Below, in pieces: positions 20,342-45,454 of a stretch of DNA of 64,000 nt. Positions within the stretch are counted from its first letter, which is position 1; every line of letters starts with the position of its first letter. The DNA is from Leisingera aquimarina DSM 24565 (GTDB lineage: Bacteria > Pseudomonadota > Alphaproteobacteria > Rhodobacterales > Rhodobacteraceae). The notes beneath the pieces were generated by a model. It saw only the letters and a program-made list of their open reading frames with translations, ran no database searches and was not told where the DNA came from. The position numbers and the translations under genes are program-made. The stretch spans positions 1,332,501 to 1,396,500 of the forward strand of contig NZ_KI421504.1 of the NCBI RefSeq assembly GCF_000473165.1, in the 5' to 3' direction.

Positions 20342-21100
20342 TCAGGACATCCTTTCATCATAGATCCAGGCCTCTGCCGGGCCGTCCAGCAGGCGCCTTG
20401 CAAGGGCGGCGGTAAAGTCCCAGACTGCTTCGTCATGCACCAGATGGTGGGTCAGAAGGCCGTAAGGTTCTGCATTGTCGGCATCGCCAAGCCGGCGGTC
20501 GCGCAGCTGGCATGCAACCTGATTGATCAGCTGTTCCGGCGGCACCAGGCTGCGGGCGCCTTTCCAGTTGATCGGGTCGAGATGGGTGTTCACCCGCAGC
20601 AGCCCTGAGGCGGGTTTGGCGCTTTTACGCGGCGTAAAAGTGGAGACCGCAGTGAAACCGGCACCGGCCAGCCAGGTCAGCATCTCCGGAGAAATCCGGT
20701 TCCAGGGCGGCACAAACATCGGGCGCAAGCCAGTGCCGAACATCTCTTGCAGAGCGGTCAGCCCACGTTCGGCGTCGTCCAGCAATTCCTCCAGCGGGCG
20801 GTGCGCTCCAAACTCGGCTTTCTTCTCGCCGGCGGGGGCATGGTTCTGGTGTGCCCATCCATGCACCACCGGGATCAGTTGCTGATGATCTGCAACAAAA
20901 CGGCCAAGGTCCGGGGTGACACCGTGCGGGATCACCGCAAGATGCACCGGAAGGTCCAGGTCTGCAGATAGTTCTGTCAAACGCTCCAGCTCGGTTGAGT
21001 GGGACATCGCGTCGTCGTCCCGCCACCACAAAGGCAGCGTCAATCCCCCCGTCTGCCAGTGCTCCAGTTCCCGGTCGAGACCGCTCCAATCCGGTGTCAT
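20342..21100 (-). CDS. Polysaccharide deacetylase (NodB-like)
   Basis: 252-residue carbohydrate esterase 4-like protein, expected to remove acetyl groups from an N-acetyl sugar. Visible motifs: WWRDDDAMS with the catalytic Asp pair (about residues 25-33), VVHGWAHQNH with the metal His (about 78-87) and PPWNRIS (about 130-136). There is no signal peptide, so it probably acts in the cytoplasm, unlike many NodB proteins. It overlaps the upstream glycosyltransferase by 4 bp (ATGA). In this cluster it likely deacetylates a lipid- or nucleotide-linked intermediate; that is inference. Confidence 0.82.
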   Translation of the reverse strand: MTPDWSGLDRELEHWQTGGLTLPLWWRDDDAMSHSTELERLTELSADLDLPVHLAVIPHGVTPDLGRFVADHQQLIPVVHGWAHQNHAPAGEKKAEFGAHRPLEELLDDAERGLTALQEMFGTGLRPMFVPPWNRISPEMLTWLAGAGFTAVSTFTPRKSAKPASGLLRVNTHLDPINWKGARSLVPPEQLINQVACQLRDRRLGDADNAEPYGLLTHHLVHDEAVWDFTAALARRLLDGPAEAWIYDERMS

Positions 21101-22233: not shown

Positions 22234-22817
22234 GGTGCGCCCTTGCGGATCAGCCGGACCGGTTCGGGCCAAGGCATAAGGGCGGAGCCGCTGATTTCCA
22301 CCACAAACAGCCGGTTGCGTTTGATGCGGAAGGGCGCGGGGCCGTCGAAATCCCAGCCATGGGCGCGGGCCAGGATCATTCGCATGATGCCGATGTGGCA
22401 GACCGCGACTGTGTCCCGTGTCAGGCTGCGCAACCAGGGTTCAATGCGGGTCCAGACCTCTGCCGGGGATTCTCCGCCGGGCGGGCGGTAGTGCCAGCCC
22501 CAATCCTCGATATCGCGGAAACCGCTGGCTGGGTCGGTCTTCAGGTCCAGCCCGTGCAGCCCCTCCCAGTCGCCCCAGTTCATTTCGGTCAGTTCCTCTG
22601 CGGTGCTAGGTGCGCGGCCTGTGATCAGTTCTGCGGTTTCCGCCGCGCGCATCAGCGGGCTGGACCAAAGACCGGCCTGCTGCCAGTCAGCGGGCAAGGC
22701 ATAGCCGGGCAGCTCTTCGCGGGCTTGGTCATCCAGCGGGATGTCGCTGCGACCCTGGATGCGGCCGGCGCGGTTCCAGGCGGTGTGGCCATGGCGCAAA
22801 AGGGCAACGCGGATCAT
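22230..22817 (-). CDS. Histidine phosphatase family protein
   Basis: 195-residue phosphoglycerate-mutase-like phosphatase. The catalytic LLRHGHTAWNRAGRIQGRSD (residues 7-26) carries the RHG phospho-histidine motif; the second His is in AVCHIG (about residue 146), with the acid residue in EMNWGDWEG. CobC/SixA-like proteins share this layout. It is encoded between two glycosyltransferases with 4-bp overlaps on both sides, so a sugar phosphate or polyprenyl phosphate substrate is plausible. No cobalamin genes are nearby to support an alpha-ribazole phosphatase role. Confidence 0.85.
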   Translation of the reverse strand: MIRVALLRHGHTAWNRAGRIQGRSDIPLDDQAREELPGYALPADWQQAGLWSSPLMRAAETAELITGRAPSTAEELTEMNWGDWEGLHGLDLKTDPASGFRDIEDWGWHYRPPGGESPAEVWTRIEPWLRSLTRDTVAVCHIGIMRMILARAHGWDFDGPAPFRIKRNRLFVVEISGSALMPWPEPVRLIRKGAP

Positions 22818-23902
22818 GCGCGTGTCTCCATCAGCGGTAAAACAGTTGCCCAGAATTGCCGGGCAGCGGCGGGTGCGAGATGGCGGGAAGATATGAAGTC
22901 ACGTGCATCCTGGCCAGCTTCGGTGCGGAGCGCGCGGTTTGCAAGCAGGTGTCCGGTAAAGGCTGCGAGAGCCTCCGGGCCGTTTTCCGGCGCCGGGCAG
23001 CCAGCGGGCAGCAGCACGTCCCGCACGCCGGGGCGGTCCTGGGCCGCGATGGGCAGACCGTGAGCCTGGGCTTCAAGGTAGACCATGCCAAAGGCTTCAT
23101 TGACGCCGGGCCAAAGGAACAGGCTGGCGTTGGCATAGGCGGCAGCCAGCTCCATGCGGGAAAGCTGGCCGAGGAAGCGCACTTTGCCGCCGTAAGGCGC
23201 CATCAGCGCCTCGACGCCGCCTCGGGCGGGGCCGTCGCCTGCAATGTCCAGCTGCCAATCGCCAGGCAGATGAGAGAGCGTTTCGGAGATGATTTGGTAG
23301 GAGGCCAGCTTGTCGCCTTTGCGCATCATGCCGGCCGTCAGCATCGGGCCGTCAAGCGAGGAGGCTTCGGGCAGCTGATCCCGCGGCAGGAAAGGGCGCA
23401 GGTGGGCCACTGCCTGAGTACCGCAGCGGTCGCGCTCCAATGCAAAATGGTCCTGTTCCGTGAAATAGAAGATCGCCGCGGCAGCATCGGCAGCGGCATG
23501 GGCTGTCTCGGCAAAGCCGCCCCATGGTCCGGTCAGGCGCTTCTTGGCGCGGGTGGACTCGATCTGCACATAGGGAATGCCGCGGGCGCGGGCGACGGCA
23601 GGGCCGATCAGATCGGGCGCCTTGTAATAATTGTGATAGCTGACCCAGAGGTCTGTTTCCGGAAGACCGCGGATTAGCCGTTTAACCTCGGCGTCTGCCT
23701 GATTGCGCAGACTTGCCTGCAGCGCCGCGTCGCCATGCTTGTCATAGATCCGCAAGTCGGAAGCCAGCTGCACATCCGCGCTGCTGCCGCTGAGCAGGTC
23801 CATCAGGTTGCGGGCAATCTCGCGGTCGCCGGAGGGCACCGGGTGATGCGGCGGTTTCATCGGTGCGTAGAAGGCAACCCGCGTTCCGGCTCCCGGCTGC
23901 AT
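22814..23902 (-). CDS. Family 4 glycosyltransferase
   Basis: 362-residue GT-B retaining glycosyltransferase. The C-terminal domain has the GT4 E-x7-E motif (NEAFGMVYLEAQAHGLP) and the preceding RFLGQLSRMELAAAY; the N-terminal half contains VAFYAPMKPPHHPVPSGDRE, a family-specific acceptor-side loop. The stop lies 4 bp inside the phosphatase gene; the upstream gene ends 6 bp before this start. It is one of two GT4 genes in the operon. No signal sequence or membrane helix. Confidence 0.82.
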   Translation of the reverse strand: MQPGAGTRVAFYAPMKPPHHPVPSGDREIARNLMDLLSGSSADVQLASDLRIYDKHGDAALQASLRNQADAEVKRLIRGLPETDLWVSYHNYYKAPDLIGPAVARARGIPYVQIESTRAKKRLTGPWGGFAETAHAAADAAAAIFYFTEQDHFALERDRCGTQAVAHLRPFLPRDQLPEASSLDGPMLTAGMMRKGDKLASYQIISETLSHLPGDWQLDIAGDGPARGGVEALMAPYGGKVRFLGQLSRMELAAAYANASLFLWPGVNEAFGMVYLEAQAHGLPIAAQDRPGVRDVLLPAGCPAPENGPEALAAFTGHLLANRALRTEAGQDARDFISSRHLAPAAARQFWATVLPLMETRA

Positions 23903-23908
23903 GGCCGG

Positions 23909-25153
23909 TCAGCTTCCCTGCAGCATGGCATGCAGCCGGCTGGACAGCTGGGCGATGCCGGGATCCATTCCGAAATCACTGCGCAGGCGGGCCAGCGCGG
24001 CATCGGCCATATCTGCCAGCCGCTGCGGGTGCCGGGCAGCATAGAGCAGGGTTTCGGCCAGCGCCTCAGGGCCGTCCTCGCTCAGCAGGCCATGGGTGCC
24101 ATGTGTGATGAACTCGGGGATGGCAGAAACCGGCGTCGACAGGATCGGCAGGGATTGCGAGGCGGCTTCCATCAGCACGTTGGGCAGCCCGTCGCGGTCG
24201 CCGTCCGCGGCGACCCGGCTGGGCAGCACAAACAGGTCCGAGCGGCGCATTGCCTCGATCACCTCGGGCTGGTCGCAGGCGCCGCGCCAGGTGATGCGGT
24301 TGGCAATTCCCGCATCCTCAGCCATGCCCTGCAGCAGGTCGCCCAAACCGCCGCCGCCGATATGGGTCCAGTGCCATTCCAGCCCCGCGGGAAGCAGAGC
24401 CAGAGCGGCGATCAGCCGGTCAAAGCCTTTTTTCTCAACCAAACGCCCTACTGACATGAAGCGGACCGGGTCCTGCGGCTGGCGCGGAAGGCGCTCCGGC
24501 GGCGCGGGGAAGCGCGACAGGTCGAGCCCGTGATAGACCAGATCAACCCGGTCCGGCGTATCGGCCATCTGTTGCAGATGTTTGGCGCCAAAACCGGTGC
24601 ACGTGGCGCCAAAGGCCGCGCCGTGATGGGCGGCGGAGAGCTTTTCCTTAAGCTCCCAATCCGGCGATGTCCAAATGTCCTTGGCGTGGGCCGAAAAGCT
24701 CCACGGCAGCCCGCGCATGATAGCGGCATAACGCGCAACGGAGGAAGGCGTGTGCAGGAAGTGCGCATAAAGCCCCAACACTTCCGCGGGCATTTCTGCG
24801 GCCAGCACACAGGCCTGGCCAAAGCGGCGGATGCGGTTGGGTGTCAGATCACGGCGCAGATCGGCACGCCAAACTCTATAGGCTTCAGCATAGCCGGGCA
24901 GCCGTTGAGCCATCGCGCGCGCGCTCCAGACCCGCTCTGGCTCCTCGTAAAGGTATTCGGGAAGGTAGTTCACCGGTGCCTGCAGCCGCGCATGCAGCGG
25001 GTGGCGCTTGACGTCTGTGGGGTGGCGCAGAGACCAGATCTCAAGCGCGTGGCCGACGGCCTCCAGGGCCACCAGTTCCTGTGCAATGAAGGTTTCGGAC
25101 AGCCGCGGCCAGCCCTTGACCACCACTGCAAGCGGCGGGCGGGGCGTGCTCAT
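23909..25153 (-). CDS. Family 4 glycosyltransferase (colanic-acid-type)
   Basis: 414-residue GT4 enzyme. The N-terminus VVKGWPRLSETFIAQEL is the acceptor-side motif typical of WcaK/WcaL-like exopolysaccharide glycosyltransferases. The C-terminal half holds FMSVGRLVEKKGFDRLI, GGGGL and the E-x7-E region DGLPNVLMEAASQSLP. ATG at 25153 overlaps the previous gene by 4 bp, and this was preferred over a far-upstream in-frame ATG inside the neighbour. It acts in a cytoplasmic or membrane-peripheral glycan assembly line with its neighbours. Confidence 0.83.
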   Translation of the reverse strand: MSTPRPPLAVVVKGWPRLSETFIAQELVALEAVGHALEIWSLRHPTDVKRHPLHARLQAPVNYLPEYLYEEPERVWSARAMAQRLPGYAEAYRVWRADLRRDLTPNRIRRFGQACVLAAEMPAEVLGLYAHFLHTPSSVARYAAIMRGLPWSFSAHAKDIWTSPDWELKEKLSAAHHGAAFGATCTGFGAKHLQQMADTPDRVDLVYHGLDLSRFPAPPERLPRQPQDPVRFMSVGRLVEKKGFDRLIAALALLPAGLEWHWTHIGGGGLGDLLQGMAEDAGIANRITWRGACDQPEVIEAMRRSDLFVLPSRVAADGDRDGLPNVLMEAASQSLPILSTPVSAIPEFITHGTHGLLSEDGPEALAETLLYAARHPQRLADMADAALARLRSDFGMDPGIAQLSSRLHAMLQGS

Positions 25154-26376
25154 TCGGCGGCCTCTTGATGTGTGTTCTGCAGCAATGCGTCCACCCGGCG
25201 GGTGACATAGTCCAGCCCGTCCAGCAGACCCTCTGAGCCGGCCGCGGAGGGCGGCGGCTGGTTGGCCAGCGCGCGGATCGCCTTGGCCAGCGCCGGGGCG
25301 TTCCACCCGTCGCGGGTTTCGTCCAGCATAGTGGTGAGGCCGATTTCCTCGGCCCGGCTGGCGCGGATCCATTGTTCCAGCCGCGGCGTGGTGCGGGGCA
25401 CGATCACTGCGGGTTTGTCAAAGGACAAGACTTCGCAGAACGTATTGTAGCCGCCCATGCAGACAACGCCCTGGGCGCCGGCAAACAGGGTTTCGATCTG
25501 TGATTCAAAACCGACGGCGGTGACCCGGCCATTCAGCCGGGCGACCCGCTCCTCGAAATCCTCGCGGGTTTCTCCGGACAGGAAGGGGCCATAGACCAGT
25601 ACAGCGCGCGGGGAGAGTTCCGTGTCGGCTTCATAGGCCGACAGCACCAGGTCCACCATCATTTCGCCATCGCCGCCGCCGCCGGGGGTGACCAGCAGAT
25701 AGGGCTGTTCGGGCGGCTCCCCCACCTGGCCAAGATCGCGGCGCAAGTAGCCGGTCCAGTGCATCCGGGCCTGCATCTGCGGGGTGAACGGCAGCCCCGC
25801 CGTCGGATCGTACACAGACCGCGGCCCGTAAACCCAGATTTCATCATAGAAATCGCGTGTGGCCTCAACCGCGTGCTTGCGCTCCCATTCGGCAGCCAGC
25901 ACTTCGGGCTCATCCAGTACATCACGCAGGCCCAGCACCATCTTGCAGCGGCCCCGCGATTTCAGCAGGTCCAGCGCCGGCATCAGCTCGCCGCGAAAAC
26001 CAGTGGGTTCCTTGTCGGCCACCAGCACATCGGGGTCGTACTGCTCCACTGTCGAGCGGATCAGCGCGGCGCGCAAGTCGGCGGTTTCCTCAATGCTCAT
26101 GCCCATGGTGCGCGAAGCATAAGAGCCGTCGGAGCGCTTGATCACACCCGGCAGGCGGACATGGTCGACCCGCGTCGGAAACGAGAACCGGCCGGCAACC
26201 GGTGAACCAGTCAGGATCAGCGCCGAGGCGTCGGGGTTGGCAGCGGTGAGGGCACCTGCCAGCGCGCGTGAACGGCGCAGATGCCCCAGCCCAAAAGTGT
26301 CGTGGCTGTAGAACATGATCCGCGGTCCGCGCGTGCCTGTGCCCGCTGCTGTCTGTGTGGTGCTTGCGGTCGTCAT
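25150..26376 (-). CDS. GT28-like glycosyltransferase, first gene of glycan operon
   Basis: 408-residue GT-B protein. MFYSHDTFGLGHLRRSRALA (about residues 21-40) has the Gly-rich nucleotide-sugar loop seen in MurG-like enzymes, and VCMGGYNTFCEVLSFDKPAV is the C-terminal donor-binding block. LLVTPGGGGDGE is a further conserved loop. The ATG at 26376 was chosen because the conserved region starts 20 residues later; the frame stays open upstream, but that part is low-complexity and unconvincing. It opens a seven-gene operon, divergent from mscS-like across 397 bp. Confidence 0.8.
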   Translation of the reverse strand: MTTASTTQTAAGTGTRGPRIMFYSHDTFGLGHLRRSRALAGALTAANPDASALILTGSPVAGRFSFPTRVDHVRLPGVIKRSDGSYASRTMGMSIEETADLRAALIRSTVEQYDPDVLVADKEPTGFRGELMPALDLLKSRGRCKMVLGLRDVLDEPEVLAAEWERKHAVEATRDFYDEIWVYGPRSVYDPTAGLPFTPQMQARMHWTGYLRRDLGQVGEPPEQPYLLVTPGGGGDGEMMVDLVLSAYEADTELSPRAVLVYGPFLSGETREDFEERVARLNGRVTAVGFESQIETLFAGAQGVVCMGGYNTFCEVLSFDKPAVIVPRTTPRLEQWIRASRAEEIGLTTMLDETRDGWNAPALAKAIRALANQPPPSAAGSEGLLDGLDYVTRRVDALLQNTHQEAAE

Positions 26377-26773
26377 TGGATTGCCTGATCGGGTTGCCGG
26401 GCATCGGATGTCCTGAATCCTGGACCGGCGGCGCAGAAACCAGGCCAGCCGGTACTGGCGCTCGTCCCCGGGCGCATGCTTTTCTGCTCCGCCATCTTCC
26501 GCCTCAGTTTGCGCGCCCCTGAAGCCAGCTGCGGCGGGGGCACGGTCAGTATTTGCCTTTGCTGCTGTTCTGGTCGGGAAGTTGATCTGCCTGGCCAGGA
26601 TTTGCAGCTGTCCGCCCCAGGGGGCGGGAATATGAATTTGTATAGCCCGGAGCCTGTGCGCATGCAATCATGCGCCTTTGCTGCCTGGCGCACAGGAATT
26701 TGCGCCCGCGCCATTTGCGCAACGCTCCGTCGCGTGGTTAATTTGACGCAAGTTTCCAAAAGGATAAGCGTTC
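26377..26773. other. Divergent intergenic region with several inverted repeats
   Basis: 397 bp between the glycan operon (-) and the MscS-type gene (+); no convincing gene. It holds CCTGTGCGC/GCGCACAGG (26653-26661 and 26688-26696), inside it the hairpin GCGCATG-CAAT-CATGCGC (26658-26675), and a tandem ATTTGCGC (26698-26705 and 26713-26720). AAGGAT just before 26774 serves as ribosome-binding site for the channel gene. The repeats are candidate operators for one or both directions. Confidence 0.5.
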
Positions 26774-29382: not shown

Positions 29383-30729
29383 CTATTCCGGCCAGTATGC
29401 CGGTGCGCTGCCGCAACGGGAGGCGGGCCGGTCCCAGCGCATTTGGCTGGTGTCCAGGGCGAGCGGCGCAGCAAGGCGGCGGCCCGGCCCCCAGCCGCTG
29501 TTTTCGATCTCTTGGGCGAAGTCGCTGTTTGCCGGTTTGGTGACATCCGGTCCTTCGGCACATTTCTGCATTCCGGCCAGTAGCTCTGCGGTGCGGGCAA
29601 GCGACAGGCAGGCTGCGGGCACTGCTACCCCTTGGGCAGCAGTTGCCAAGGCCGAGAGCACCGCTGCAGCCATCAAATAGCCCGTGGCATGGTCCAGCGC
29701 TTGCACCGGTAAAGGGTGCGGATCGCCCGCCTTGGCCTGAACGCGGCCTGTATCGGCGATGCCTGCACTCATCTGCACGAGGCTGTCAAAACCGCGCCGC
29801 AGGGCCCAGGGACCGGTCCAGCCATAGGCATCCAGAGACACTTCAACTGCATTGGGAGAGATCCGGCGGCGGGCGTCCGCGCCGTAGCCCAGACCATCCA
29901 GCGCACAGGGACGATAGCCATGCACCAGCACATCGGCATTGGACAGCAACACCTCAAACCGCTGGCGGTCTTGGAAGTTGCACAGGTCCAGGGACGCCAT
30001 GCGCTTGCCGAGCGAAACATCGGATATAACCCCCGGTTCGTCCCAGCCGGGCGGGTCTATGCGCAGTACGTCAGCTCCGAAGCCGGCCAGCGTGCGGGTC
30101 GAGACCGGTCCGGCCAGAACCCGGGTGAGATCGAGCACTCTGAGCCCGGCAAGCGGGCGGTCTGCCGTTGCCTGAAGCCTGTCCCGCAGCTGGATCTTGC
30201 GCGGCGAGGTCCAGTGGATCAGCGGTTCGGAGGCAACAGCGCGGCCTTGCGGGTGCGCCAGCCAGTCTGCGCGGCTGCGCATGGCGGCGGCTGCACCGCC
30301 TGCGGTCACGATCTGATTTTCGAGAAGACCGGCCTGCCATTGCTTTACTGCAACTGCCACGGCCGCGCGGCTTCCTGCGCAGTCTAATACTTTCAGGGCA
30401 GATTGCCGGTGGTGCGGCAGGTTGGTGTGCAGGCGGATCCAGCCGTCTGCAGTTTCATAATTGCCGGCAACCGGATCCCACAGGCTGGGAAGCTCCCAGC
30501 CCTCGGGGCGGAAACTATAGCTGAACCAAAGTGACGCCAGGCGCTGGTCGACCGTGACCTCCGGCGAAACGGGCGCCAGGTTCAGCGCATTCACCAGCCG
30601 CGCCAGTTCCAGCCCCACTGCGGCGATTGAAGCAGTGGCAAGTTCCGTAACCGCAAAGGCACTGCGCCAGCGCCCTGTGCCGGTCAGGCGGTAGCTGCCA
30701 GGCGCGGACAGGGCAGCGAGCAAGGTCAT
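29383..30729 (-). CDS. CaiB/BaiF-family CoA transferase with permuted domain order
   Basis: 448-residue class III acyl-CoA transferase. The canonical N-terminal block RPLAGLRVLDLTRVLAGP appears only at residue 191; the catalytic Asp is in ALDHATGY (about residue 393). Residues about 85-175, including WLAHPQGRAVASEPLIHW, look like the C-terminal part of ordinary CaiB proteins, so the order is swapped. The acyl acceptor is unknown. Its start overlaps the yejE-like stop by 4 bp, making it the last gene of a peptide-transporter operon, an unusual partnership. Confidence 0.8.
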   Translation of the reverse strand: MTLLAALSAPGSYRLTGTGRWRSAFAVTELATASIAAVGLELARLVNALNLAPVSPEVTVDQRLASLWFSYSFRPEGWELPSLWDPVAGNYETADGWIRLHTNLPHHRQSALKVLDCAGSRAAVAVAVKQWQAGLLENQIVTAGGAAAAMRSRADWLAHPQGRAVASEPLIHWTSPRKIQLRDRLQATADRPLAGLRVLDLTRVLAGPVSTRTLAGFGADVLRIDPPGWDEPGVISDVSLGKRMASLDLCNFQDRQRFEVLLSNADVLVHGYRPCALDGLGYGADARRRISPNAVEVSLDAYGWTGPWALRRGFDSLVQMSAGIADTGRVQAKAGDPHPLPVQALDHATGYLMAAAVLSALATAAQGVAVPAACLSLARTAELLAGMQKCAEGPDVTKPANSDFAQEIENSGWGPGRRLAAPLALDTSQMRWDRPASRCGSAPAYWPE

Positions 30730-31880
30730 TGCTGGTAGGGATCCAAGCTGTCGCGCAACCCGTCGCCAAGAAAGTTGAAAGCCAAGACGACAATCACAAT
30801 CGGCAGCATCGGGATCGCGGTCCAGGGATAGATCTCGATCGAGGCCAGGTTTTGCGCGTCATTCAGCATCACCCCCCAGCTGACCGCCGGCGCGCGCAGG
30901 CCAAGGCCGAGGAACGACAGAGCGGTCTCACCCAGAATCATCGCCGGGATCGAGAGGGTGGCCGAGGCGATCAGATGCGACATGAAGTTTGGCAGCAGAT
31001 GCTTGCGGATGACGCGGCCGGAAGAGGCCCCCATCATCTCAGCGGCGCGCACGTATTCCTCTTCGCGCAAGGACAGGAATTTCGCCCGCACCGATCTTGC
31101 AAGCCCTGGCCAGTCAAGAATGCCGAGGATGATCGAGATGACGAAGAACACCGCAACCGGCGACCAGTTCGAGGGCACCGCCGCTGACAGCGCCAGCCAT
31201 AGGGGCAGCTCAGGCAGGGACCGCAGGACTTCGATCACCCGGTTGATCAGCCAATCGGTCTTGCCGCCGAAATACCCGGCCAATGAGCCAAAGAAGATGC
31301 CGAGAACAAAAGACACGGAAATGCCGATCAGCCCCACTGTAAGCGACAGCTGGGCGCCATAGGAAACGCGGCTGAAGATGTCGCGGCCCAGCCGGTCGGA
31401 CCCTAGGATAAAGATCGTCGCCTCTTCGGTTGCGCAGAACAGGTGGCGGTTGCTTTCGATGATACCGGCCAGATTATAGGTTTTGCCTTCACAGAAGAAT
31501 TCAAGCTTCAGCGGACGCGAGGTGTCGGGACTGAACTCCCACTGGAAGGTTTCCAGATTGGCCTCGGACGTCATCGGGTAAACGAAGGGTCCCACGAATT
31601 CGCCCTCGTGGAACAGCTTGATCGATTGCGGCGGGGAATACAGATGCTCTGAAAAGCGCTGGTTTGGCCCGTAGGGAGCGATGAAGCCAGCGAACGGGAT
31701 CATGAGGTAGGCGACCAACAGGAATATGCCCGAGATCAGCCCCAGTTTGTGGGTTTTGAACTTGCGCCAGACCAGCAGCCAATTGGGCGCGTCAAGGTCT
31801 TTGCGCTCCAGCTCCAGAATCGAGGCCCGCGGGTCGAAAGGTTCGTCATCGACAAAACGTCCATCAGCCAGCCGGGTCAT
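30726..31880 (-). CDS. yejE: Peptide ABC transporter permease, YejE-like
   Basis: 384-residue inner-membrane permease of the DppC/OppC type with an N-terminal extension as in YejE. One helix near residue 50, a long periplasmic loop, then five helices; the EAA coupling loop is EYVRAAEMMGASSGRVIRKHLLPN (quoted in parts: EYVRAAEMMGAS and RVIRKHLLPN). Its ATG overlaps the yejB-like stop by 4 bp. It should pair with the YejB-like permease to import oligopeptides, possibly microcin-like peptides as in E. coli Yej. Confidence 0.86.
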   Translation of the reverse strand: MTRLADGRFVDDEPFDPRASILELERKDLDAPNWLLVWRKFKTHKLGLISGIFLLVAYLMIPFAGFIAPYGPNQRFSEHLYSPPQSIKLFHEGEFVGPFVYPMTSEANLETFQWEFSPDTSRPLKLEFFCEGKTYNLAGIIESNRHLFCATEEATIFILGSDRLGRDIFSRVSYGAQLSLTVGLIGISVSFVLGIFFGSLAGYFGGKTDWLINRVIEVLRSLPELPLWLALSAAVPSNWSPVAVFFVISIILGILDWPGLARSVRAKFLSLREEEYVRAAEMMGASSGRVIRKHLLPNFMSHLIASATLSIPAMILGETALSFLGLGLRAPAVSWGVMLNDAQNLASIEIYPWTAIPMLPIVIVVLAFNFLGDGLRDSLDPYQQ

Positions 31881-32905
31881 GTGCCGCGCCCCTCATACCG
31901 GATCCTCGGGTCAAGCAGCACCAGCAGAACATCTGAAACCATGGTGCCGATCAAAGTAAGCAAAGCGACGAACATCAGCACGAAGCCCGACAGGAACATG
32001 TCTTGGGTCTTCAATGCGGTCAGCAGGGTCGGACCGATGGTTTGCAATCCTAGCACGACCGACACCAGAACGGAGCCTGAGATCATTGCCGGCAGCAGGT
32101 TGCCGATGTCGGCGACAAAGGGGTTGAAGGCGACGCGCAGCGGATACTTGGCCAGCATCCGCGAGGGTTTCATGCCCTTAGCGATGGCAGTTTCCACATA
32201 TGGCTTGCCAAGTTCATCCAGCATGTTGGCGCGTAACCGCTGCATCATCGCCGAAGCGCCGGCGGTGCCGATCACGAAGGTCGGCACGATCAGGTGGACG
32301 AGGATGGACTTCACTTTGTCCCAGTTCATCGGCACACCTTCGTATTCGGGGGCCATCAGCCCGCCGATCGGCAGATCAAACCAGCGGTGGCCATAGTAGA
32401 ACAAGATCAGTGCGAGCAGAAAGTTAGGCGTGGCGAGTCCCAGATAACCGATAAAGGCCGAGGTGTAATCAATCCAGGTCCGGGCCCGCGCAGCGGCTAA
32501 AACACCCAGCGGCAGCGCCACCGCATAGACAAAGATTACGGCGGACAAGTTTACCAGAACTGTAAGCCACAGGCTGTCGCCGACAATATCGGCAACCGGG
32601 CTGTCGAACTCGAAAGACCAGCCGAAATTGCCTTGGATCATGCCGGAAAACCCGTGCGGGCCGGGCATGAAACCCATCCAGATCATGTATTGCTGCCACA
32701 GGGGTTTATCGAGCGCATATTCCTGTCTTAGGAATTCCGCCTTGGCGACGCCTGCGGACTGGCCGGTGGCCTGCAGCTCGGCAATCTGGTTCGACAGATA
32801 GTCGCCCGGCGGCAGGTTGATGATGGCAAAGACCAGCACCGACACCACCAGAAGCGTAAGCAGCATGGTGCCAAACCGGTAAATGGCGTAACGCAGAATT
32901 TCCAT
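31877..32905 (-). CDS. yejB: Peptide ABC transporter permease, YejB-like
   Basis: 342-residue DppB/OppB-type permease with six helices. N-terminal YAIYRFGTMLLTLLVVSVLV is the usual first helix; the EAA loop YVETAIAKGMKPSRMLAKYP is conserved. A long segment after helix 1 (PPGDYLSNQIAELQATGQSA) is typical of this subgroup. The start overlaps the binding-protein stop by one base, and the stop overlaps yejE. Substrate class by family only. Confidence 0.87.
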   Translation of the reverse strand: MEILRYAIYRFGTMLLTLLVVSVLVFAIINLPPGDYLSNQIAELQATGQSAGVAKAEFLRQEYALDKPLWQQYMIWMGFMPGPHGFSGMIQGNFGWSFEFDSPVADIVGDSLWLTVLVNLSAVIFVYAVALPLGVLAAARARTWIDYTSAFIGYLGLATPNFLLALILFYYGHRWFDLPIGGLMAPEYEGVPMNWDKVKSILVHLIVPTFVIGTAGASAMMQRLRANMLDELGKPYVETAIAKGMKPSRMLAKYPLRVAFNPFVADIGNLLPAMISGSVLVSVVLGLQTIGPTLLTALKTQDMFLSGFVLMFVALLTLIGTMVSDVLLVLLDPRIRYEGRGT

Positions 32906-34818
32906 CAGCCCTGGCCATCCTCAAAAAAGAACTCATCCGGACGGTAAAGACCGAAATGGGCGCCGGGATCCCAGGCCCATATTGCTTGATTGGGCACATT
33001 ACGCAGGCGGTTGCTGACCACGACGGGCTGCGGCGCGGCGGCCACGACGCCGATGGCAAAAACCTGATCAGCGTGGATCTGCAGCATGGCGCGCCAGGCT
33101 GTAGCACGCTCGGCATCTGTCGTGGCCATGTTCCAGTCCTGCATCAGATCCATCAGTTGCCGGGCCGGGGCCATGTCAGGCGGCTCCCCCGCATCGCCGC
33201 CGGTTTGATAGAACTGGCCCCACTTCGGCCAGGAAAGGAACACCTGATCCGTTGGAGCCAGATAGGCAGGCGAGGTGTAGACCTGCGGCAAGCCATTATC
33301 CCAGCCGAACCAGGCAGAAGCCATGGTGCTGCCAGAAAACACGCGGTTGCGCAGGATGTCGCGGTCCAGCGGGCGCATAACCAGTTTGACCCCGACATCA
33401 CGCCAGTCGTCCGAAATTATCTGAAGTGCATTCTCGACTTCCTGACGTTCGCCTGCTGTTTCCACGACCAACTCCATCAGCCGCCCGTCGGCCAGATAGC
33501 GGATCCCATAGGCGTCTTTCTCTGTAAGGCCGGCCTCGTCCAGAAGCCAGTTGGCCTGCTCCGGGTCAAAATCCGCCCAGGCGGCACGCAGGGCAGGGTC
33601 AAAGAACTCGCTCTGTTCCAGCACAGTCATGGCGCCGGGCTTGGCCAGGTTGAAATATAGCGCCCTGTTGATGGCACGGCGGTTGATAGCCAGCGACAGC
33701 GCCCGGCGTACCCGGACATCGCGCAGCACCTCGCGCCAGACCGGATCCTTGGCATTCAGGTTCGGATAGATCGCGATCTGCGAGGCTGCACCGGACCCCC
33801 AGAGATATGTCTTGTAGTTTGCGCCGTCCTTTTCACCCTTGCGCAGGATCGGAATATCACGAAAACCGAGGCCGCGGGCCTGCAGGTCGGCCTCTCCGGC
33901 GTTGGATTTGGCCGCAACCAGGCCGGCAGTCACGATCTCCATTTCCACGGTGTCGATGTAGGGCAGTTGCACGCCGCGGCTGTCGATCCGGTGGTAATAG
34001 GGATTGCGCACGAACTGGTGGCGGATCTTCTTGCCGGGCGAGGCGTTTATCCAGGGCTGCAGTGTTGGAAGCTCGTGGTTATCGAACTTGTACATGTTGT
34101 CGTATTTGTTGTGCAGCGCGGCCCAGCTTTTTACGCGGGCATAATCGACTTCTTCCTCCAGCACGCCCGGGTCAGCGTAATCGGCATGGAATTGCTTCAA
34201 GTATTCCGCCGGCCGGTAGATGAAAGGCGGGCGCGCCTGGGCCAGCATGTGCAGGAAGCTGGGGTTGGGGTCGTCCCATTCGTAGATGATTGTGGCTTCG
34301 TCCGGGAAGCTTACGCGCGGCAGCTTGCCGTTCACGCGCAGGAAATCCGGCGGACCGGCCGGGCTGAGCAGCTCGTGGTTGGCTACATCTTCCCACCAGT
34401 AGCGGAAATCGGCAGAAGTGAAGGGATCACCGCTGGACCAGCGGTGGCCGGGCCGCAGCTTCAGTGTGTAGCGCCGGTTCTCTTCGTTCTCATAGCCTAG
34501 CAGAATGTCAGGCTGCAGCCGGTAGCTTTCGTCATAGCCCGCCAGCCGCGCATAGCCATAGACCACCATCTGGCGGATGTCCTTGGAACGGGTAACCATG
34601 GTGTTCAGTGTGCCACCCTCAGTGCCGAAGGCCCGGCCTTTGGCAGCCAAATCGACCACCAGCGGCACCTCTGGCAGGCGTTTGGCCACTGGGGGCAAGT
34701 AGCCCGCCTTGACTTCGGAGCTCCAGAATTTGCTTTCCTGGACCTCGGGGCCGCAAAGGGCAGAAATCGGGGCAAGGCATAGAACAACCGCCAAAAAGGG
34801 TTTCAGGGCATCAAGCAT
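32905..34818 (-). CDS. yejA: Extracellular solute-binding protein family 5, YejA-like
   Basis: 637-residue periplasmic peptide-binding protein, with an N-terminal hydrophobic signal (about residues 5-22, LCG near the cleavage site). SBP_bac_5 features: LKLRPGHRWSSGDPFTSADF, VRRALSLAINR and the late DRDILRN segment. The length exceeds DppA (about 530) and matches YejA-like proteins. It lies between the ATPase and the two permeases, so the order here is F-A-B-E rather than A-B-E-F as in E. coli. Confidence 0.87.
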   Translation of the reverse strand: MLDALKPFLAVVLCLAPISALCGPEVQESKFWSSEVKAGYLPPVAKRLPEVPLVVDLAAKGRAFGTEGGTLNTMVTRSKDIRQMVVYGYARLAGYDESYRLQPDILLGYENEENRRYTLKLRPGHRWSSGDPFTSADFRYWWEDVANHELLSPAGPPDFLRVNGKLPRVSFPDEATIIYEWDDPNPSFLHMLAQARPPFIYRPAEYLKQFHADYADPGVLEEEVDYARVKSWAALHNKYDNMYKFDNHELPTLQPWINASPGKKIRHQFVRNPYYHRIDSRGVQLPYIDTVEMEIVTAGLVAAKSNAGEADLQARGLGFRDIPILRKGEKDGANYKTYLWGSGAASQIAIYPNLNAKDPVWREVLRDVRVRRALSLAINRRAINRALYFNLAKPGAMTVLEQSEFFDPALRAAWADFDPEQANWLLDEAGLTEKDAYGIRYLADGRLMELVVETAGERQEVENALQIISDDWRDVGVKLVMRPLDRDILRNRVFSGSTMASAWFGWDNGLPQVYTSPAYLAPTDQVFLSWPKWGQFYQTGGDAGEPPDMAPARQLMDLMQDWNMATTDAERATAWRAMLQIHADQVFAIGVVAAAPQPVVVSNRLRNVPNQAIWAWDPGAHFGLYRPDEFFFEDGQG

Positions 34819-36592
34819 GGCAGCGCACCTTATGGCCGGGTTCCAGGTGTTTCAGGTTAACCAGGCGCGGGGCATCGGATCCGTTAAAGCGGAATTCCTC
34901 GGGCCAGCAGTCCGGCGCGCCTGCGCCTTGGGCTACCATTTTTAAGTCGATGGGCCGGTCGATATCAGGTTCCGGCTGGGCCGCGATCAGCGCCTTGGTG
35001 TAGGGGTGCTGTGGATTGTAGAATAAGGTTTCCGGCGGCGCCTGCTCGACAATCAATCCGCGCCGCATCACGGCGACCTCATCTGCTATGCGGGCGACCA
35101 CGGCCAAATCATGGCTGATGAAAAGATAAGACAGGTTCTGCCGGTCGCGAATTTCCTCCAGCAACAGAAGGATCTGCTCCTGCACCGAAACATCCAGCGC
35201 CGAGGTCGGTTCGTCGCAGACGATCAGCGCCGGCTCCAGCATCAGCGCGCGCGCTATCGACAGACGCTGGCGCTGACCGCCGGAAAACGCGTGCGGGTAG
35301 CGTTTCAGCATGTCCGGGGACAGGCCAACCAGCCGCAGCATGTCCGCCGCCTTGTCCCGGCGTTCGGCACGAGAACCGATGCGGTGGATTTCCAGGGGTT
35401 CCACCAAAGTGTCCTGAATGCGCATCCTGGGCGAAAGTGAGGAGTAAGGGTCCTGGAACACCATCTGGGCTTGCCGCTGAAAGGCGGTGCGCGCGGCACG
35501 GTCCATGCTGTGCACTGTAACCGCCGGCTGATCAGGATTAGGGCGGAACAGCACTTCGCCGCCGGGATCAGGAAGTTCTGCCCCCAATGCAATTCGTGCG
35601 GCTGTGGTCTTGCCCGAGCCGCTTTCACCGACAACAGCCAGGGTTTTTCCGCGGGTTAACCGCAGATCAACCTCGCGGCAGGCGTGGATCAGGGTCGGAG
35701 CTTGCCAGCCCTTGCTGGCTCTTAGAGTGTAGGTCTTGGAAACCGACTTCATCTCCATGATCAGGTCATCGCGTGACGGCGGGATTGCGACGACGGCTTC
35801 ATCCGGGATTTCCGGTGCTGCATTAAACAGGGCCTTGGTATACGGATGGGCAGGGGTGCGCAGCATCGGCTCCGCACGGCCGGATTCCATCACCCGGCCC
35901 TTGTGCATCACCACCACCTGCTCTGCCATATTGGCGACCACGCCCAAGTCGTGGGTCACCAGGATCATCGCCATGCCGCTTTCGCGTTGCAGCTCTTTCA
36001 TCAGCCCCAGCACCTGGGCCTGTGTGGTCACGTCCAGCGCCGTGGTCGGCTCATCCGCAATCAGCAGGTCCGGCTTTGCCACCATGGCCATGGCGATCAT
36101 TGCCCGCTGGCGCATTCCGCCGGACAGTTCGAAGGGGTAGGATCTGTAGGTGCGTTCCGGCTCGGGAAACCCGACCCGCTCAAAGCATTCAAGGACCTCC
36201 TTGCGTGCCTCGCGTTCGGACTTGCGGCCATGCAGCCACAGCACTTCTGACACCTGATTTCCGATCCGGTGCAGCGGGGAAAGCGAGCGCATCGGCTCCT
36301 GAAAAATCATCGCGACGGTATTGCCGCGCACGTCGCGCATCCGCCGTTCATCAAGCGTCGCAAGGTCAAGTTCGCTGCCGCGGGTGTTCAGCAAAATACG
36401 CCCGGTGCGCAACTGCGCCACCTTTGGCAGGATGCGCAGCACGGCCCGGCAAGAAACCGTTTTCCCTGAGCCGCTTTCCCCGACCAGGGCGAGTGTTTCG
36501 CCTGGCTGCACAGCAAAGCTCACGTCCTTCACGACGGAGTCGCCCTTGCCAAATCCAATGCTGAGATTTTCAACGGACAGCAGCGGGCGCAT
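34811..36592 (-). CDS. yejF: Dual-domain peptide ABC transporter ATPase, YejF-like
   Basis: 593-residue fusion of two ABC ATPase domains. N-terminal domain: Walker [24 protein letters not shown] and LLIADEP; C-terminal domain: [24 protein letters not shown] and LIVCDEP, H-loops THD and SHD. Both sites look active. It is the promoter-proximal gene and overlaps the binding-protein gene by 8 bp. The linker and the C-terminal Cys-containing oligopeptide tail (residues about 555-593) are as in Opp/Dpp-type ATPases. Confidence 0.9.
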
Positions 36593-42260: not shown

Positions 42261-42322
42261 ACCGATTGACCTCCAGCATGGATACCTCGCTGGAACCTTA
42301 CGGATTTTTCGCCGTCTGGCAA

Positions 42323-45300
42323 ATGCCGCGCCGGCAGGGTGCCGCAACGGGACAAGGCGGTCTTCTGCCCATTGCCTGTGCCTGCCAAACCGCGCTACCC
42401 ATAAGGCAGACCACATCCGAAGCCGCCATTTATGGAGCTTTCCCCATCGAACGCTCTTTGTTCCGTTTCATCTGGAAGTACTCGAAACGCGACCAGCTGG
42501 TGCTGCTGCTGGTCACGGCCTGCCTGTTCCCGCTGCTGTACCTGACGCTGGAGCTGCCGAAACGGATCATCAACGATGCGATCGGTGCCGAGACCTCCAC
42601 TATCACACTGCTCGGGCAGAGCTTTGATCAGCTGACGTTCCTGTGGATCCTTTGCGGCGGTTTTCTGTTGTCGGTGCTGTGCCACGGCCTGCTGAAAATG
42701 CGCATCAACACGATGAAGGGCGTACTGGCCGAGCGGATGCTGCGCCGCTTCCGCTATCAATTGATTGCCCGGGTGCTCCGCTTTCCGCAGCCTTATTTCG
42801 AGCGGGTGAGCCAGGGCGAACTGGTGTCGATGGTCACTTCCGAATCCGAACCTATGGGCGGGCTGATGGGCGATGCGGTCAGCCAGCCGGTGCTGCAAGC
42901 GGGGCAGATGCTGACCATCCTGTTCTTCCTGTTCCTGCAGAATTTCTGGTTCGGCATGGCAGCTATTGCTCTCATCCCGTTGCAGGGCTGGCTGATTCCG
43001 ATGCTGCAGCGCCAGATCAACCTGTTGAACAAAAAACGCATCAAACAGGTGCGGGCGCTGGCCACTGAGATCGGCGAAAGCGCTGCAGGCGCCGCGACGC
43101 TGCGGATCAATGGCGGCTGGCGTTACCGGATGGCGATCATCACGGCTAGGCTGGGGCGGCTGTATGACATCCGCTTCGAGATCTACCAGAAAAAATTCTT
43201 CATGAAGTTTCTCAATAACTTCATCACGCAGCTCACGCCGTTCTTCTTCTATGCTGTCGGCGGCTTTCTTGTGCTGCAGGGCAAAGTCTCGCTGGGCGCG
43301 CTGGTGGCGGCGCTTGCGGCCTACAAGGATCTGGCATCGCCCTGGAAAGAATTGCTGACCTACTACAACCAGACTCAGGACATGGGTTTGCGCTGGGAGG
43401 TGATCCTGGAGCGCTTTGCGCCGCAGGGCATGGTGGATGAGAAGCTGCTGAGCGGCGAGCCGGCGGAGCTGGAACGCCTGCGCGGCGATGTGGTTCTGGA
43501 TGCGGTCAATGTGCGTGATACCGATGGCAATCTGGTGCTGGAGGAGCTGAGCGCAACTTTCCCCGCAGGGCAGGTTATCGGTATTGCAGCCCCCTCCGAG
43601 GAAGACCGCCGGGCCCTGGCGGAACTGCTGACGCGGGAAATCCTTCCGTCAACCGGAACCGTGTCAGTGGCAGATCAGAACCTCAGCGGGCTGCACCAGG
43701 CAACGGTGGCGGCGCGGATCGGCTATGCCACCTCGCGGCCGGTTCTGTTCCAAGGGTCTTTTGGCGACAACGTGATGATGCCAATGCGGCTGCGGCCGCT
43801 GGGCGCGGCTCAGAACCTGCAGCAGCTGAAGATTGCCAAACGCGCGGGCAATAGCCCGGACCCCTTTGATGCGCCCTGGCTTGATCCCAAACTGGCTGGT
43901 TTCTCCAGCGAAGCGGAGCTGCGGAGCTGGTGGTTGCAGCTGGTTGAAGGGATTGGGTCTGATACCGCCCTGTTCCGCCGCGGTATCGAACAATGCTTCG
44001 AGGCGCCCGCCCACCCGGATTTGGCGGAACGGCTGGTCGGGCTGCGCCCATCGGTGCGCCAGGCCATTTTGGACGCCGGTCTGGACGTGCATGTGCATTT
44101 TCTGGAGCCGGAAACATACAATCCGGCCCTGCCGGTTGCGGAAAACCTGCTGTTTGCGGCTTCGCAACAAGCAATGACCGGAGAGATTCTGCATGGGCAT
44201 GCAGAATTTCTTGATCAGCTCAAGCAGCTGGAACTGGACGAAGGACTGGTGGCACTGACCCGTGATGTGGTGGAGATGCTGCGCCAAATCTTCGGCATGG
44301 ATGGCACTGGCCACCCGCTGTTTCGTAAGTTGGGATTGGATGTGGGCGCCTATGAAACAGCACTGTCGCTGGTCGACCGGCCCGGCACCGTCAATGCGGC
44401 GGCGCTCAGCCGCGAGGAGCTGGCGCAGCTGCTGATCGTGCCTTTCACCATTTCGGCGGAACAGATCGGTCCGGCCTTTGAAGAGGCAATGAAGGAGCGG
44501 ATTCTTGGTTTCCGCCGCAGCCACGGGCAAAACTTGCTAAAAGCTTTGGGAGCCGGCTTTGTGCCGTTTGCAGAAGAGGCAATCGCCCCCACGCTGACGG
44601 TTCTGGAAAACGCTCTGTTCGGCAAAATATCGGATGCAGCAGGGGCCAAGGGCGATGAGGTGCGAAAACTGGTCTCGGAACTGATGGTGCGCGAAGGTCT
44701 GCGTGACCAGGTGGTGGAGCTGATCTTTGACATGCCGATTGCGGTGGGCGGGCAGGGGTTGGCTGCCAGCTTTGCCGAACCGCTGGCCTTTTGCCGGGCC
44801 ACAATCAAGAAACCGGATATCCTGATCCTTGATTCCGCGATGGCAAGCTATGACTTGGAAACCCGGGTCGCAGTGCATAAGAACCTGCGCAAGCTGCTGC
44901 CCGGAACCACGCTGATCTATCTTGCCCCCAGCTTCCAGAGTCCAGATGTTTTTGATGTCTTCTTTGAGCTGCGCCAGGGCCGTCTGGTCAGCGACGAGGC
45001 GCAGGTTGCGGCGGCTGGCGACGGTGCGGCGAGCCAGGATCTCGCCCGCAAACTGAGGGCTCTGGAGCAAACTGAACTGTTCTCGGGCCTGAACCGGCGT
45101 CAGTTGCGCCTGCTGGCGTTTGGCGCCCGCTGGTATGATGCCGCAGCGGGCGAAGTGGTATTCCTGAAGGATGATGAAGCGTCGGACGGGGCCTATATGA
45201 TCCTTGAAGGCGAGGCAGAACTTTACTTGCCGCAGCCTGGCGGTGAGGACCGGCTGATCACCACGGTTGGCCCCGGGCGGCTGGTGGGGGAATTGGGTCT

Positions 45301-45454
45301 GATCCGCCATGAAGCCCGGGCGCTGAGCATGATCGCGGCGACGGACCTTAGCTGCTTGCGAATTGGCGAAGAAGAATTTCTGGCAGTGGTGGAAAATGAC
45401 GCCTCCACGGCATTCAAGCTTTTGCAGGTTGTGGCGGGCTACGTCTCCAATTGA
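42323..45454 (+). CDS. ABC-exporter-like protein with degenerate ATPase and cNMP-binding domain
   Basis: About 1043 residues from ATG 42323; the start is unresolved. Residues about 45-340 form a type I ABC exporter membrane domain (LELPKRIINDAIGA; FFYAVGGFLVLQGKVSLGAL). The nucleotide-binding domain follows, but the P-loop position reads GIAAPSEEDRRAL (about 419-431) with no GKS/T; Walker B is ILILDSAMASYD (833-844), lacking the catalytic Glu; the H-loop position is IYLAPSF, with no His. Walker A and B positions are 410 residues apart, about 290 more than usual. Residues about 913-1043 are a cNMP-binding domain with GELGLIRHEARALS. It probably does not hydrolyse ATP. Canonical starts (42278, 42323) lack ribosome-binding sites; an ATC at 42446 has GGAG 8 bases upstream and would give IERSLFRFIWKYS. 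Confidence 0.8.
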   Translation: MPRRQGAATGQGGLLPIACACQTALPIRQTTSEAAIYGAFPIERSLFRFIWKYSKRDQLVLLLVTACLFPLLYLTLELPKRIINDAIGAETSTITLLGQSFDQLTFLWILCGGFLLSVLCHGLLKMRINTMKGVLAERMLRRFRYQLIARVLRFPQPYFERVSQGELVSMVTSESEPMGGLMGDAVSQPVLQAGQMLTILFFLFLQNFWFGMAAIALIPLQGWLIPMLQRQINLLNKKRIKQVRALATEIGESAAGAATLRINGGWRYRMAIITARLGRLYDIRFEIYQKKFFMKFLNNFITQLTPFFFYAVGGFLVLQGKVSLGALVAALAAYKDLASPWKELLTYYNQTQDMGLRWEVILERFAPQGMVDEKLLSGEPAELERLRGDVVLDAVNVRDTDGNLVLEELSATFPAGQVIGIAAPSEEDRRALAELLTREILPSTGTVSVADQNLSGLHQATVAARIGYATSRPVLFQGSFGDNVMMPMRLRPLGAAQNLQQLKIAKRAGNSPDPFDAPWLDPKLAGFSSEAELRSWWLQLVEGIGSDTALFRRGIEQCFEAPAHPDLAERLVGLRPSVRQAILDAGLDVHVHFLEPETYNPALPVAENLLFAASQQAMTGEILHGHAEFLDQLKQLELDEGLVALTRDVVEMLRQIFGMDGTGHPLFRKLGLDVGAYETALSLVDRPGTVNAAALSREELAQLLIVPFTISAEQIGPAFEEAMKERILGFRRSHGQNLLKALGAGFVPFAEEAIAPTLTVLENALFGKISDAAGAKGDEVRKLVSELMVREGLRDQVVELIFDMPIAVGGQGLAASFAEPLAFCRATIKKPDILILDSAMASYDLETRVAVHKNLRKLLPGTTLIYLAPSFQSPDVFDVFFELRQGRLVSDEAQVAAAGDGAASQDLARKLRALEQTELFSGLNRRQLRLLAFGARWYDAAAGEVVFLKDDEASDGAYMILEGEAELYLPQPGGEDRLITTVGPGRLVGELGLIRHEARALSMIAATDLSCLRIGEEEFLAVVENDASTAFKLLQVVAGYVSN

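Follow-up and report, generated by a model that had tools for sequence, protein, structure and literature searches.

Introduction

ATP-binding cassette (ABC) transporters are the textbook example of ATP-driven transport, and active ABC exporters require a Walker A motif, a catalytic Glu and an H-loop His in their nucleotide-binding domains (NBDs). In the heterodimeric exporters BmrCD, TM287/288, TAP and TmrAB one site is degenerate and the partner keeps a working site, and the eukaryotic SUR and CFTR are exporter-fold proteins that act as a regulator or a channel, keep ATP binding and have no cyclic-nucleotide-binding domain. Here, we describe a gene of Leisingera aquimarina DSM 24565 (Alphaproteobacteria, Rhodobacteraceae; RefSeq assembly GCF_000473165.1, contig NZ_KI421504.1, positions 1,332,501 to 1,396,500, a stretch of 64,000 nucleotides called the window below) whose product, a pseudo-exporter, joins an exporter membrane domain and a cyclic nucleotide monophosphate (cNMP)-binding domain to an NBD that lacks all three motifs.

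MsbA, BmrA and P-glycoprotein, which are type I ABCB-like exporters, have the same membrane fold, NBD coupling and domain order as the window protein, but the latter has lost Walker A, the catalytic Glu, the H-loop His, the Q-loop Gln and the LSGGQ signature and has gained about 290 residues and a C-terminal cNMP domain. With BmrCD, TM287/288, TAP and TmrAB, which are found among its structural matches, it shares a degenerate NBD in an exporter; however, no exporter partner was seen for it, and a homodimer would have both sites dead. An exporter fold in a regulator or channel role would be the likeness to SUR and CFTR, from which the cNMP domain sets it apart. A cNMP-type domain also occurs in HetC of Nostoc, a cNMP-C39 peptidase-ABC exporter, and there the domain is needed in vivo and reported to bind ppGpp, while an ATPase residue is essential (PMC10986499). 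The domain of HetC is N-terminal and is accompanied by a peptidase and a live ATPase, unlike that of the window protein. No description of the present family or locus was found in the open-licence literature searched.

An exporter fold without a motor

The gene had first been picked out from the letters alone. That original prediction of an intact frame at 42446-45454 without Walker A, catalytic Glu or H-loop His holds, and the Walker A to Walker B spacing, given there as 410, was measured at 408 residues (R388 at the Walker A Lys place to D796, the Walker B Asp). Pfam finds ABC_membrane at residues 40-290 (1.3e-15) and cNMP_binding at 900-985 (4.9e-16), with ABC_tran at 365-460 below threshold (22 against a 25-bit cut-off); a six-helix ABC_membrane domain followed by an NBD is the layout of the type I ABC exporter fold. 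In profile searches solved ABC exporters match in two pieces, up to residue ~446 and from ~761, and the ~290-residue insertion separates the two stretches with matches to solved ABC NBDs. The exporter membrane domain, the insertion and the closing cNMP domain claimed at the outset are all borne out by these matches. The best 25 of 79 matching NCBIfam families all lie far below their cut-offs and none is specific to the window protein; a far family member gives the same pattern (best 25 of 95 listed). RefSeq labels the annotated copies examined 'ABC transporter transmembrane domain-containing protein' or 'ABC transporter ATP-binding protein', except for one labelled 'cyclic nucleotide-binding domain-containing protein'.

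The P-loop place of the window protein reads GIAAPSEEDRRAL. Aligned to BmrA, the Walker A Lys is replaced by R388 and the following Ser/Thr by R389, the Q-loop Gln by S430, the signature by LAASF, the catalytic Glu by S797 and the H-loop His by P828. These places were compared across 192 family sequences, namely 104 of clade A (the clade of the window protein, which is included), 16 of clade B and 72 far relatives; L081 and L187 were omitted from the alignment as short, and L174 and L189, initially scored as far relatives, were relabelled clade A for the residue counts. In clade A, Arg occupies the Walker A Lys place in 104/104 sequences and both the catalytic Glu and the H-loop His are absent (0/104 each), and clade B has 15 Arg and 1 Ala at the Lys place, with Glu and His absent in all. 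The 72 far relatives keep the Lys in 36, the Glu in 35, the His in 20 and the Gln in 10, and one position beyond the Lys place, 58 of them have Asp or Glu and 5 have Ser. A Walker A of the form GxxGxGK[ST] is present in 0/104, 0/16 and 3/72, respectively, the three being L154, L180 and L183. These alone among the 192 have GK[S/T], in the form GKS, together with the Walker B Asp and catalytic Glu (VVDEG), and they have no His, so that Walker A, Glu and His occur jointly in 0/192. Orthologues with normal Walker motifs, which the original prediction had set as the test against itself, are thus absent from clade A. Judged by these residue counts, the degeneration of the motor is family-wide and graded, and it is complete in clade A.

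A folded pseudo-NBD with a duplicated subdomain

The insertion is best read as a duplication of the NBD's own Q-loop/alpha-subdomain. In the far relatives a repeated signature is visible, as ...RYNxNATVAENLLFG... within the insertion and as ...RYNAAATLQDNILFG... just ahead of the back half of the NBD, with a weaker third copy at the true Q-loop. Comparison of repeat profiles by hhalign (row L091 excluded) gives a probability of 98% (E 1.7e-13) for repeats 2 and 3; repeat 1 gives only weak matches, an in-register one to repeat 3 (35%, E 4e-4) and another to repeat 2 (24%).

In the structure prediction proposed for the gene, an AlphaFold model of residues 340-862 (predicted local distance difference test score, pLDDT, 80.9; predicted template modelling score, pTM, 0.77) matches ABC NBDs; among the 50 matches listed, the template modelling (TM) score normalised by target reaches 0.63, for the TAP1 NBD. 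By motif content and model, the pseudo-NBD appears folded but catalytically dead. An ordinary NBD spoiled by a frameshift was ruled out, as relatives share the insertion in alignments and jointly lack all three motifs.

Selection, distribution and family history

Strong purifying selection acts on every part of the protein. Median dN/dS is lowest in the membrane domain (0.040), followed by the cNMP domain (0.045) and the NBD back (0.055), and it reaches 0.080 in the insertion and 0.083 in the NBD front (150 pairs at 80-95% identity drawn, 116-142 usable per segment), and the membrane domain is also the best-conserved part, with a mean identity of 0.92. More than 900 residues are in frame in 79/80 loci; L087 is cut by a contig end, and L081 stops at 538 residues, the only clade A copy among those 80 to be shortened by an in-frame stop. 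The loss of the catalytic motifs could be taken for the decay of a pseudogene; with these frames and a dN/dS of 0.04-0.08 the chance of that is next to nil, and the idea was rejected on dN/dS. The earlier statement that the gene is not a decaying pseudogene holds because of this strong purifying selection (0.040-0.083 over five segments).

The own genome measures 5.34 Mb, and the closest copies found are in Leisingera (91% identical). A Leisingera-like copy (88%) also lies on a contig labelled Nocardioides marinus (L015, JAHVJD010000004.1), a record name that looks wrong. At 1e-30, matches to the pseudo-exporter occur in 129/385 alphaproteobacterial genomes of a class-level sample and in 67/295 genomes of the Rhodobacteraceae, counts that include partial and membrane-domain-only matches. 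In a phylum-level sample searched with a far member at 1e-40, 29/398 genomes match, of which 28 belong to the same class; the sole match outside it (G780, locus L187) consists of the membrane domain only, and its assembly is possibly contaminated.

Clade B is a second copy in many roseobacters, at about 47-54% identity. An obligate heterodimer of clades A and B was considered and rejected, as clade A occurs without clade B. The far alphaproteobacterial relatives (40 loci) are 28-43% identical, and in 27 of these loci a separate small gene of the same cluster, with 147-181 residues, directly follows an ABC gene of ~880 residues, while 7 are fused and 6 are unresolved by the gene caller. Two of the separate small proteins were scanned against Pfam, and both are cNMP_binding. 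In a quick tree, rooted at the midpoint only, one side contains the fused lineages together with clades A and B, at 98% support in the Shimodaira-Hasegawa-like approximate likelihood ratio test (SH-aLRT).

Copies of the membrane domain without an NBD also stand alone, at L003:1198-2538, L002:1237-2475, L236:5773-7266 and L237:5773-7077. Two plasmid copies of this kind sit in copper modules with TolC, a copper oxidase and a plastocyanin-like protein; that of L237 additionally has cytochrome c and CusA-type resistance-nodulation-division genes. The copy in L002 adjoins transposase-like frames.

The cNMP domain and nearby cyclases

The window protein has a Pfam match to the cNMP-binding (CAP_ED) fold and both the Glu and the Arg of the phosphate-binding cassette, and E949 and R958 are each invariant in clade A (104/104). 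Ala, a residue that favours cAMP at this place, follows the cassette Arg in 96/104 clade A sequences. The gene directly follows a class III cyclase gene of the same strand in L123, L124 and L211 and is divergent from one in L207; these cyclases differ in their accessory domains, and a Mesorhizobium plasmid locus of the pseudo-exporter has two cyclases. In some roseobacters (L041:25-3531 and 3607-5358; L057, L071, L074) a PKD-repeat protein and a dCache-HAMP-class III cyclase are found upstream. A phosphodiesterase role for the metallo-hydrolase beside rhizobial copies was rejected, the protein being a plain Lactamase_B_2.

A cyclase is near the gene in 16/105 clade A loci (most of which share one synteny, with three duplicate loci kept in the count), 0/16 clade B and 5/40 far loci, and none lies in the window, by a scan with a cyclase hidden Markov model that was built from 8 cyclases out of these same loci. 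The own genome has 17 matches to PF00211 (class III cyclase), in a count over 10 genomes of which 9 were picked for having a nearby cyclase, so the ligand need not derive from a neighbouring gene. The link to cyclases is suggestive, and a ligand-gated function, as proposed in the original prediction, is plausible because the cassette residues are invariant and cyclase genes lie beside some relatives. The further choice between regulator, scaffold, channel and transporter is one that sequence does not separate.

A conserved near-cognate start codon

The longest open reading frame opens at TTG 42266, but the conserved protein, which starts IER(S/T)(L/I)F, opens exactly at the ATC at 42446. Among 105 distinct clade A genes, the window included, the start codon is ATA in 71, ATC in 31 and ATG in 3, with no ATT, GTG or TTG; an AUU, AUC or AUA start of the infC type is therefore conserved at the homologous position in 102/105. 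An upstream in-frame stop is present in all 105 loci, and in 63 of them there is no ATG, GTG or TTG between the stop and the start codon. ATA makes up 70% of the Ile codons at this position, against 185/5530 (3.3%) at internal positions of the same genes (binomial P for 71/102 ATA = 8e-80, a nominal value as the rows are related), and in none of the 26 further columns that have 70 or more Ile (79 sequences) does it exceed 7.6%. The Shine-Dalgarno (SD) sequence is likewise conserved, with G at -11 in 95/102 loci and at -10 in 98/102.

The homologous start is ATG in 16/16 clade B genes and ATG, GTG or TTG in 38/40 far relatives; the CTC found in L148 and L149 is possibly a further non-canonical start. 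As a control, 30 infC loci from this bacterial family (L230, L239-L267) were read ahead of the ARRPH motif; 28 were readable, with 26 ATA and 2 ATC. No description of AUA or infC starts in this bacterial group was found in the open-licence literature searched. The RefSeq coding sequence TM1040_RS03855 (Ruegeria sp. TM1040 megaplasmid, L231:8001-8052) starts 17 codons inside the frame, at a TTG, and, as the one annotated copy examined in this respect, is a truncated annotation because the conserved ATA start was missed. This annotation, and the frame open upstream in the window, might suggest that the real start is canonical, at TTG 42266 or an inner TTG or ATG, and that the Ile is an ordinary residue; the codon bias, the 63 loci without an upstream canonical codon, the conserved SD and the canonical codons at this very position in clade B and the far relatives make this highly improbable.

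Near-cognate starts are described for infC and pcnB of E. coli (AUU) and for infC (AUA), cvfC1 (AUU) and ccpN (AUA) of S. aureus (PMC13009471, PMC9410913). The likeness lies in a conserved near-cognate codon with a good SD, but those genes do not encode large membrane proteins, whereas here AUA or AUC opens an alphaproteobacterial membrane protein of 1002 residues. AUA and AUU starts are reported to cut the yield in S. aureus to about 10% of that of AUG (PMC13009471) and initiation factor 3 (IF3) discriminates against its own AUU start (PMC9410913). From these reports, we infer that IF3 could control the pseudo-exporter gene as well.

A co-occurring importer and glycan cluster

Two sets of genes in the window, an oligopeptide-type ABC importer 6 kb from the pseudo-exporter and a glycan cluster at 16-22 kb, accompany the gene elsewhere (Table 1). 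The importer has the composition of YejABEF and Opp-type importers, with an SBP_bac_5 protein, two permeases and a double-NBD ATPase; its ATPase is closest to the YejF and GsiA models but falls below the cut-offs of both. Because this ATPase has two intact Walker A motifs, the system would be ATP-driven on the uptake side. Compared with importers that lie beside a pseudo-exporter in other genomes, its parts are 52-65% identical in Azospirillum, 43-55% in R. leguminosarum and 46-48% in Mesorhizobium, and its permeases 54-56% in Rhizobium sp. ACO-34A. The ATPase has a match of at least 40% over 200 residues in 18/40 far loci. The solute-binding protein has no close second copy in its own genome, the next match being at 23% (1.6e-4).

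In the class sample of 385 genomes, the pseudo-exporter occurs in 129 and the solute-binding protein (threshold 1e-80) in 124, with both in 119 and neither in 251 (Fisher 4e-80, calculated without regard to phylogeny, as is the next value). In the 295 Rhodobacteraceae genomes the figures are 67, 65, 63 and 226 (1e-56). The two genes lie within 20 kb of each other in 63 of the 119 genomes that have both (median 10.8 kb).

Homologues of the glycan genes are found beside far relatives, and the stretches that match such a cluster span 20.1-26.3 kb of the window. Two glycosyltransferase families are near the gene in 24-25/40 far loci, a histidine phosphatase in 24, a deacetylase-like gene in 21 and a Methyltransf_17 gene in 17; as the neighbour gene caller lists spurious antisense frames, only clusters with a Pfam-scanned representative or a window homologue are named. 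The GT28-like gene is present in 39/40 genomes with both the pseudo-exporter and the solute-binding protein and in 0/40 with neither, in a non-random set of 80 (40 positives and 40 negatives, in each case the first by number, with G017 omitted).

Table 1. Features of the pseudo-exporter gene and of the co-occurring genes in the window
Feature	Position	Strand	Residues	Detail or basis
Whole coding sequence	42446..45454	+	1002 aa + TGA	Intact single frame
GGAG SD-like core, 8 nt ahead of start	42434..42437	+		Conserved Gs
Start codon ATC	42446..42448	+		Conserved start of clade A protein
Type I exporter membrane domain	42446..43435	+	1-330	Profile and structure matches; lowest dN/dS
Front half of pseudo-NBD	43481..43783	+	346-446	Pfam, profile and model matches
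Walker A place GIAAPSEEDRRA	43580..43615	+	379-390	R388 at Lys place; BmrA-based alignment
Q-loop place	43733..43735	+	430	Ser430 for Gln; alignment
Insertion	43784..44557	+	447-704	Part of duplicated Q-loop/alpha-subdomain; alignments, hhalign, model
Repeat 2 core FLEPETYNPALPVAENLLFAASQQ	44099..44170	+	552-575	Alignments, hhalign
Repeat 3 core ...TVLENALFGKIS...	44558..44635	+	705-730	Alignments, hhalign
LSGGQ place GGQGLAASFA	44747..44776	+	768-777	Alignment
Walker B place ILILDSA	44819..44839	+	792-798	S797 at catalytic Glu; alignment
H-loop place TLIYLAPS	44909..44932	+	822-829	Without His; alignment
cNMP-binding domain	45041..45445	+	866-1000	Pfam; homologous to separate gene in relatives
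Phosphate-binding cassette LVGELGLIRHEARALSM	45281..45331	+	946-962	E949 and R958; alignment
Oligopeptide-type ABC importer	30726..36592	-		Co-occurrence, Pfam, model matches
Importer permeases	30726-31880 and 31877-32905	-		
SBP_bac_5 solute-binding protein	32905-34818	-		
Double-NBD ATPase	34811-36592	-		Two intact Walker A (GESGSGKT)
Glycan cluster, matching that beside far relatives	19862..26667	-		Homology to far-locus genes
Methyltransf_17	19862-20341	-		49% identity to far-type homologue
Deacetylase-like	20342-21100	-		37% identity to far-type homologue
MurG-like glycosyltransferase (second GT28)	21097-22272	-		26% identity to far-type homologue
Histidine phosphatase	22230-22817	-		39% identity to far-type homologue
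GT4 glycosyltransferase	22814-23902	-		
EpsE-like GT4 glycosyltransferase	23909-25372	-		59% identity to far-type homologue
GT28-like	25150-26667	-		53% identity to far-type homologue

Two further neighbours were noted in the window. A large MscS-family mechanosensitive channel gene (26774-29158, + strand) lies between the glycan cluster and the importer, and a DUF3307 gene (41868-42416, - strand) adjoins the pseudo-exporter divergently; a DUF3307 match is present in 101/105 clade A loci, 0/16 clade B and 0/40 far loci.

Discussion

The original prediction is silent on the origin of the insertion in repeats, on the two-gene form in relatives, on the partner loci in the window and on the non-canonical start. 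From the anatomy, conservation and co-occurrence, which the sequences establish, we infer transport, ligand and substrate. Our preferred reading, held tentatively and at rather less than even confidence, is that of an ATPase-less exporter-fold protein that may be switched by a cyclic nucleotide within a surface-glycan and uptake system and kept scarce by a start codon against which IF3 discriminates. Cyclic AMP or cyclic GMP from the many class III cyclases of the cell would bind the C-terminal cNMP domain, and the ligand-bound domain would move the pseudo-NBD dimer, which through the coupling helices would open or close the membrane part. When open, this could give the glycan made by the cluster (a glycolipid or an oligosaccharide) a way to cross or flip, driven by its own gradient, and the ATP-driven importer would bring an oligomer back in. 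The near-cognate start codon would keep the protein scarce and tie its synthesis to IF3, as for infC. Second-messenger gating of a glycan pathway is favoured because conservation is highest in the membrane domain, the NBD has kept its fold without its chemistry, the cNMP cassette is intact and the partners handle sugars and oligomers; the stand-alone membrane-domain paralogues also count for it. The bolder form of this proposal, a transporter or flippase in which cyclic-nucleotide gating replaces ATP hydrolysis, with a duplicated NBD, in a glycan export-and-reuptake system undescribed in the literature searched and with its dose set by IF3 through an AUA/AUC start, is possible but doubtful.

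Several observations weigh against the preferred reading. The P values for co-occurrence ignore phylogeny and the genome counts admit partial matches, as stated above, and among the 119 genomes with both genes 13 have them farther than 20 kb apart on one contig and 43 on different contigs. An unrelated window protein used as a control (46894-48126) is also enriched (19/40 vs 2/40), and the genomes that lack the genes have a smaller median size (1.7 vs 4.2 Mb over the 80 tested). Genome size accounts for part of the bias but not for the co-occurrence of the GT28-like gene, because the enrichment of the control is far below 39/40 vs 0/40. In clade B, Asp replaces the cassette Glu in 16/16 sequences, the nearby cyclases are patchy, and control by IF3 is argued by analogy. 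The AlphaFold model of the whole protein is only of moderate quality (pLDDT 73.8, pTM 0.58). Outside clade A, binding of ATP and perhaps even its hydrolysis may persist, because about half of the far relatives keep the Lys and about half the Glu.

It is rather unlikely that the protein is a cyclic-nucleotide receptor or scaffold without transport, in which the membrane domain has no role beyond anchoring and dimerisation and partners such as glycosyltransferases are bound by the pseudo-NBD, in the manner of SUR. A dead NBD with extra alpha modules and the co-occurring glycosyltransferases would suit such a role, yet the membrane domain is conserved beyond the need of a pure anchor (identity 0.92, dN/dS 0.040), and it exists in stand-alone paralogues, two of them in copper modules. 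An ATP-driven exporter after all, using an unconventional P-loop or another subunit with a working site, seems improbable. The residues kept by far relatives, in particular the GKS and VVDEG of L154, L180 and L183, speak for it, as does the co-occurrence of a double-NBD ATPase with two intact Walker A motifs; but that enzyme is a YejF/GsiA-like ATPase, as in oligopeptide importers, and is encoded beside permeases of its own. Clade A has lost the Lys, Glu, His, Gln and signature, which would leave a homodimer without a working composite site. No exporter-type partner with a working NBD recurs near the gene in 50 loci, which leaves room for a distant partner gene, and when just the two best candidates of each genome were scored, at least 9 clade A genomes lacked a second match at 1e-30.

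A Pycsar-like anti-phage effector, switched on by a dedicated cyclase, has very little to recommend it. In PADLOC, PycC models do pick up neighbouring cyclases (1.1e-23, 8.6e-28), and the TIR-effector models of Pycsar pick up the cNMP part of one separate cNMP protein (2.7e-17). These are matches to general cyclase and cNMP folds, however; the window protein itself reaches only 1.3e-4, over the cNMP part, most loci have no nearby cyclase to pair with, at the frequencies given above, and the co-occurring genes are those of glycans and uptake.

With second-messenger gating as the preferred reading, the family raises the question of what an exporter fold can do without its motor, since the membrane domain is kept under tight selection while the ATPase has been discarded. 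It provides a graded series of motor loss, with L154, L180 and L183 (GKS and Glu) and the far relatives with GK[D/E] as intermediates, and its near-invariant AUA/AUC start is a natural test case for start-codon discrimination. That an importer and a glycosyltransferase cluster co-occur with it almost perfectly points to an entire system, of which no description was found in the open-licence literature searched, and the family offers both a testable class of ligands and a testable set of partner genes.

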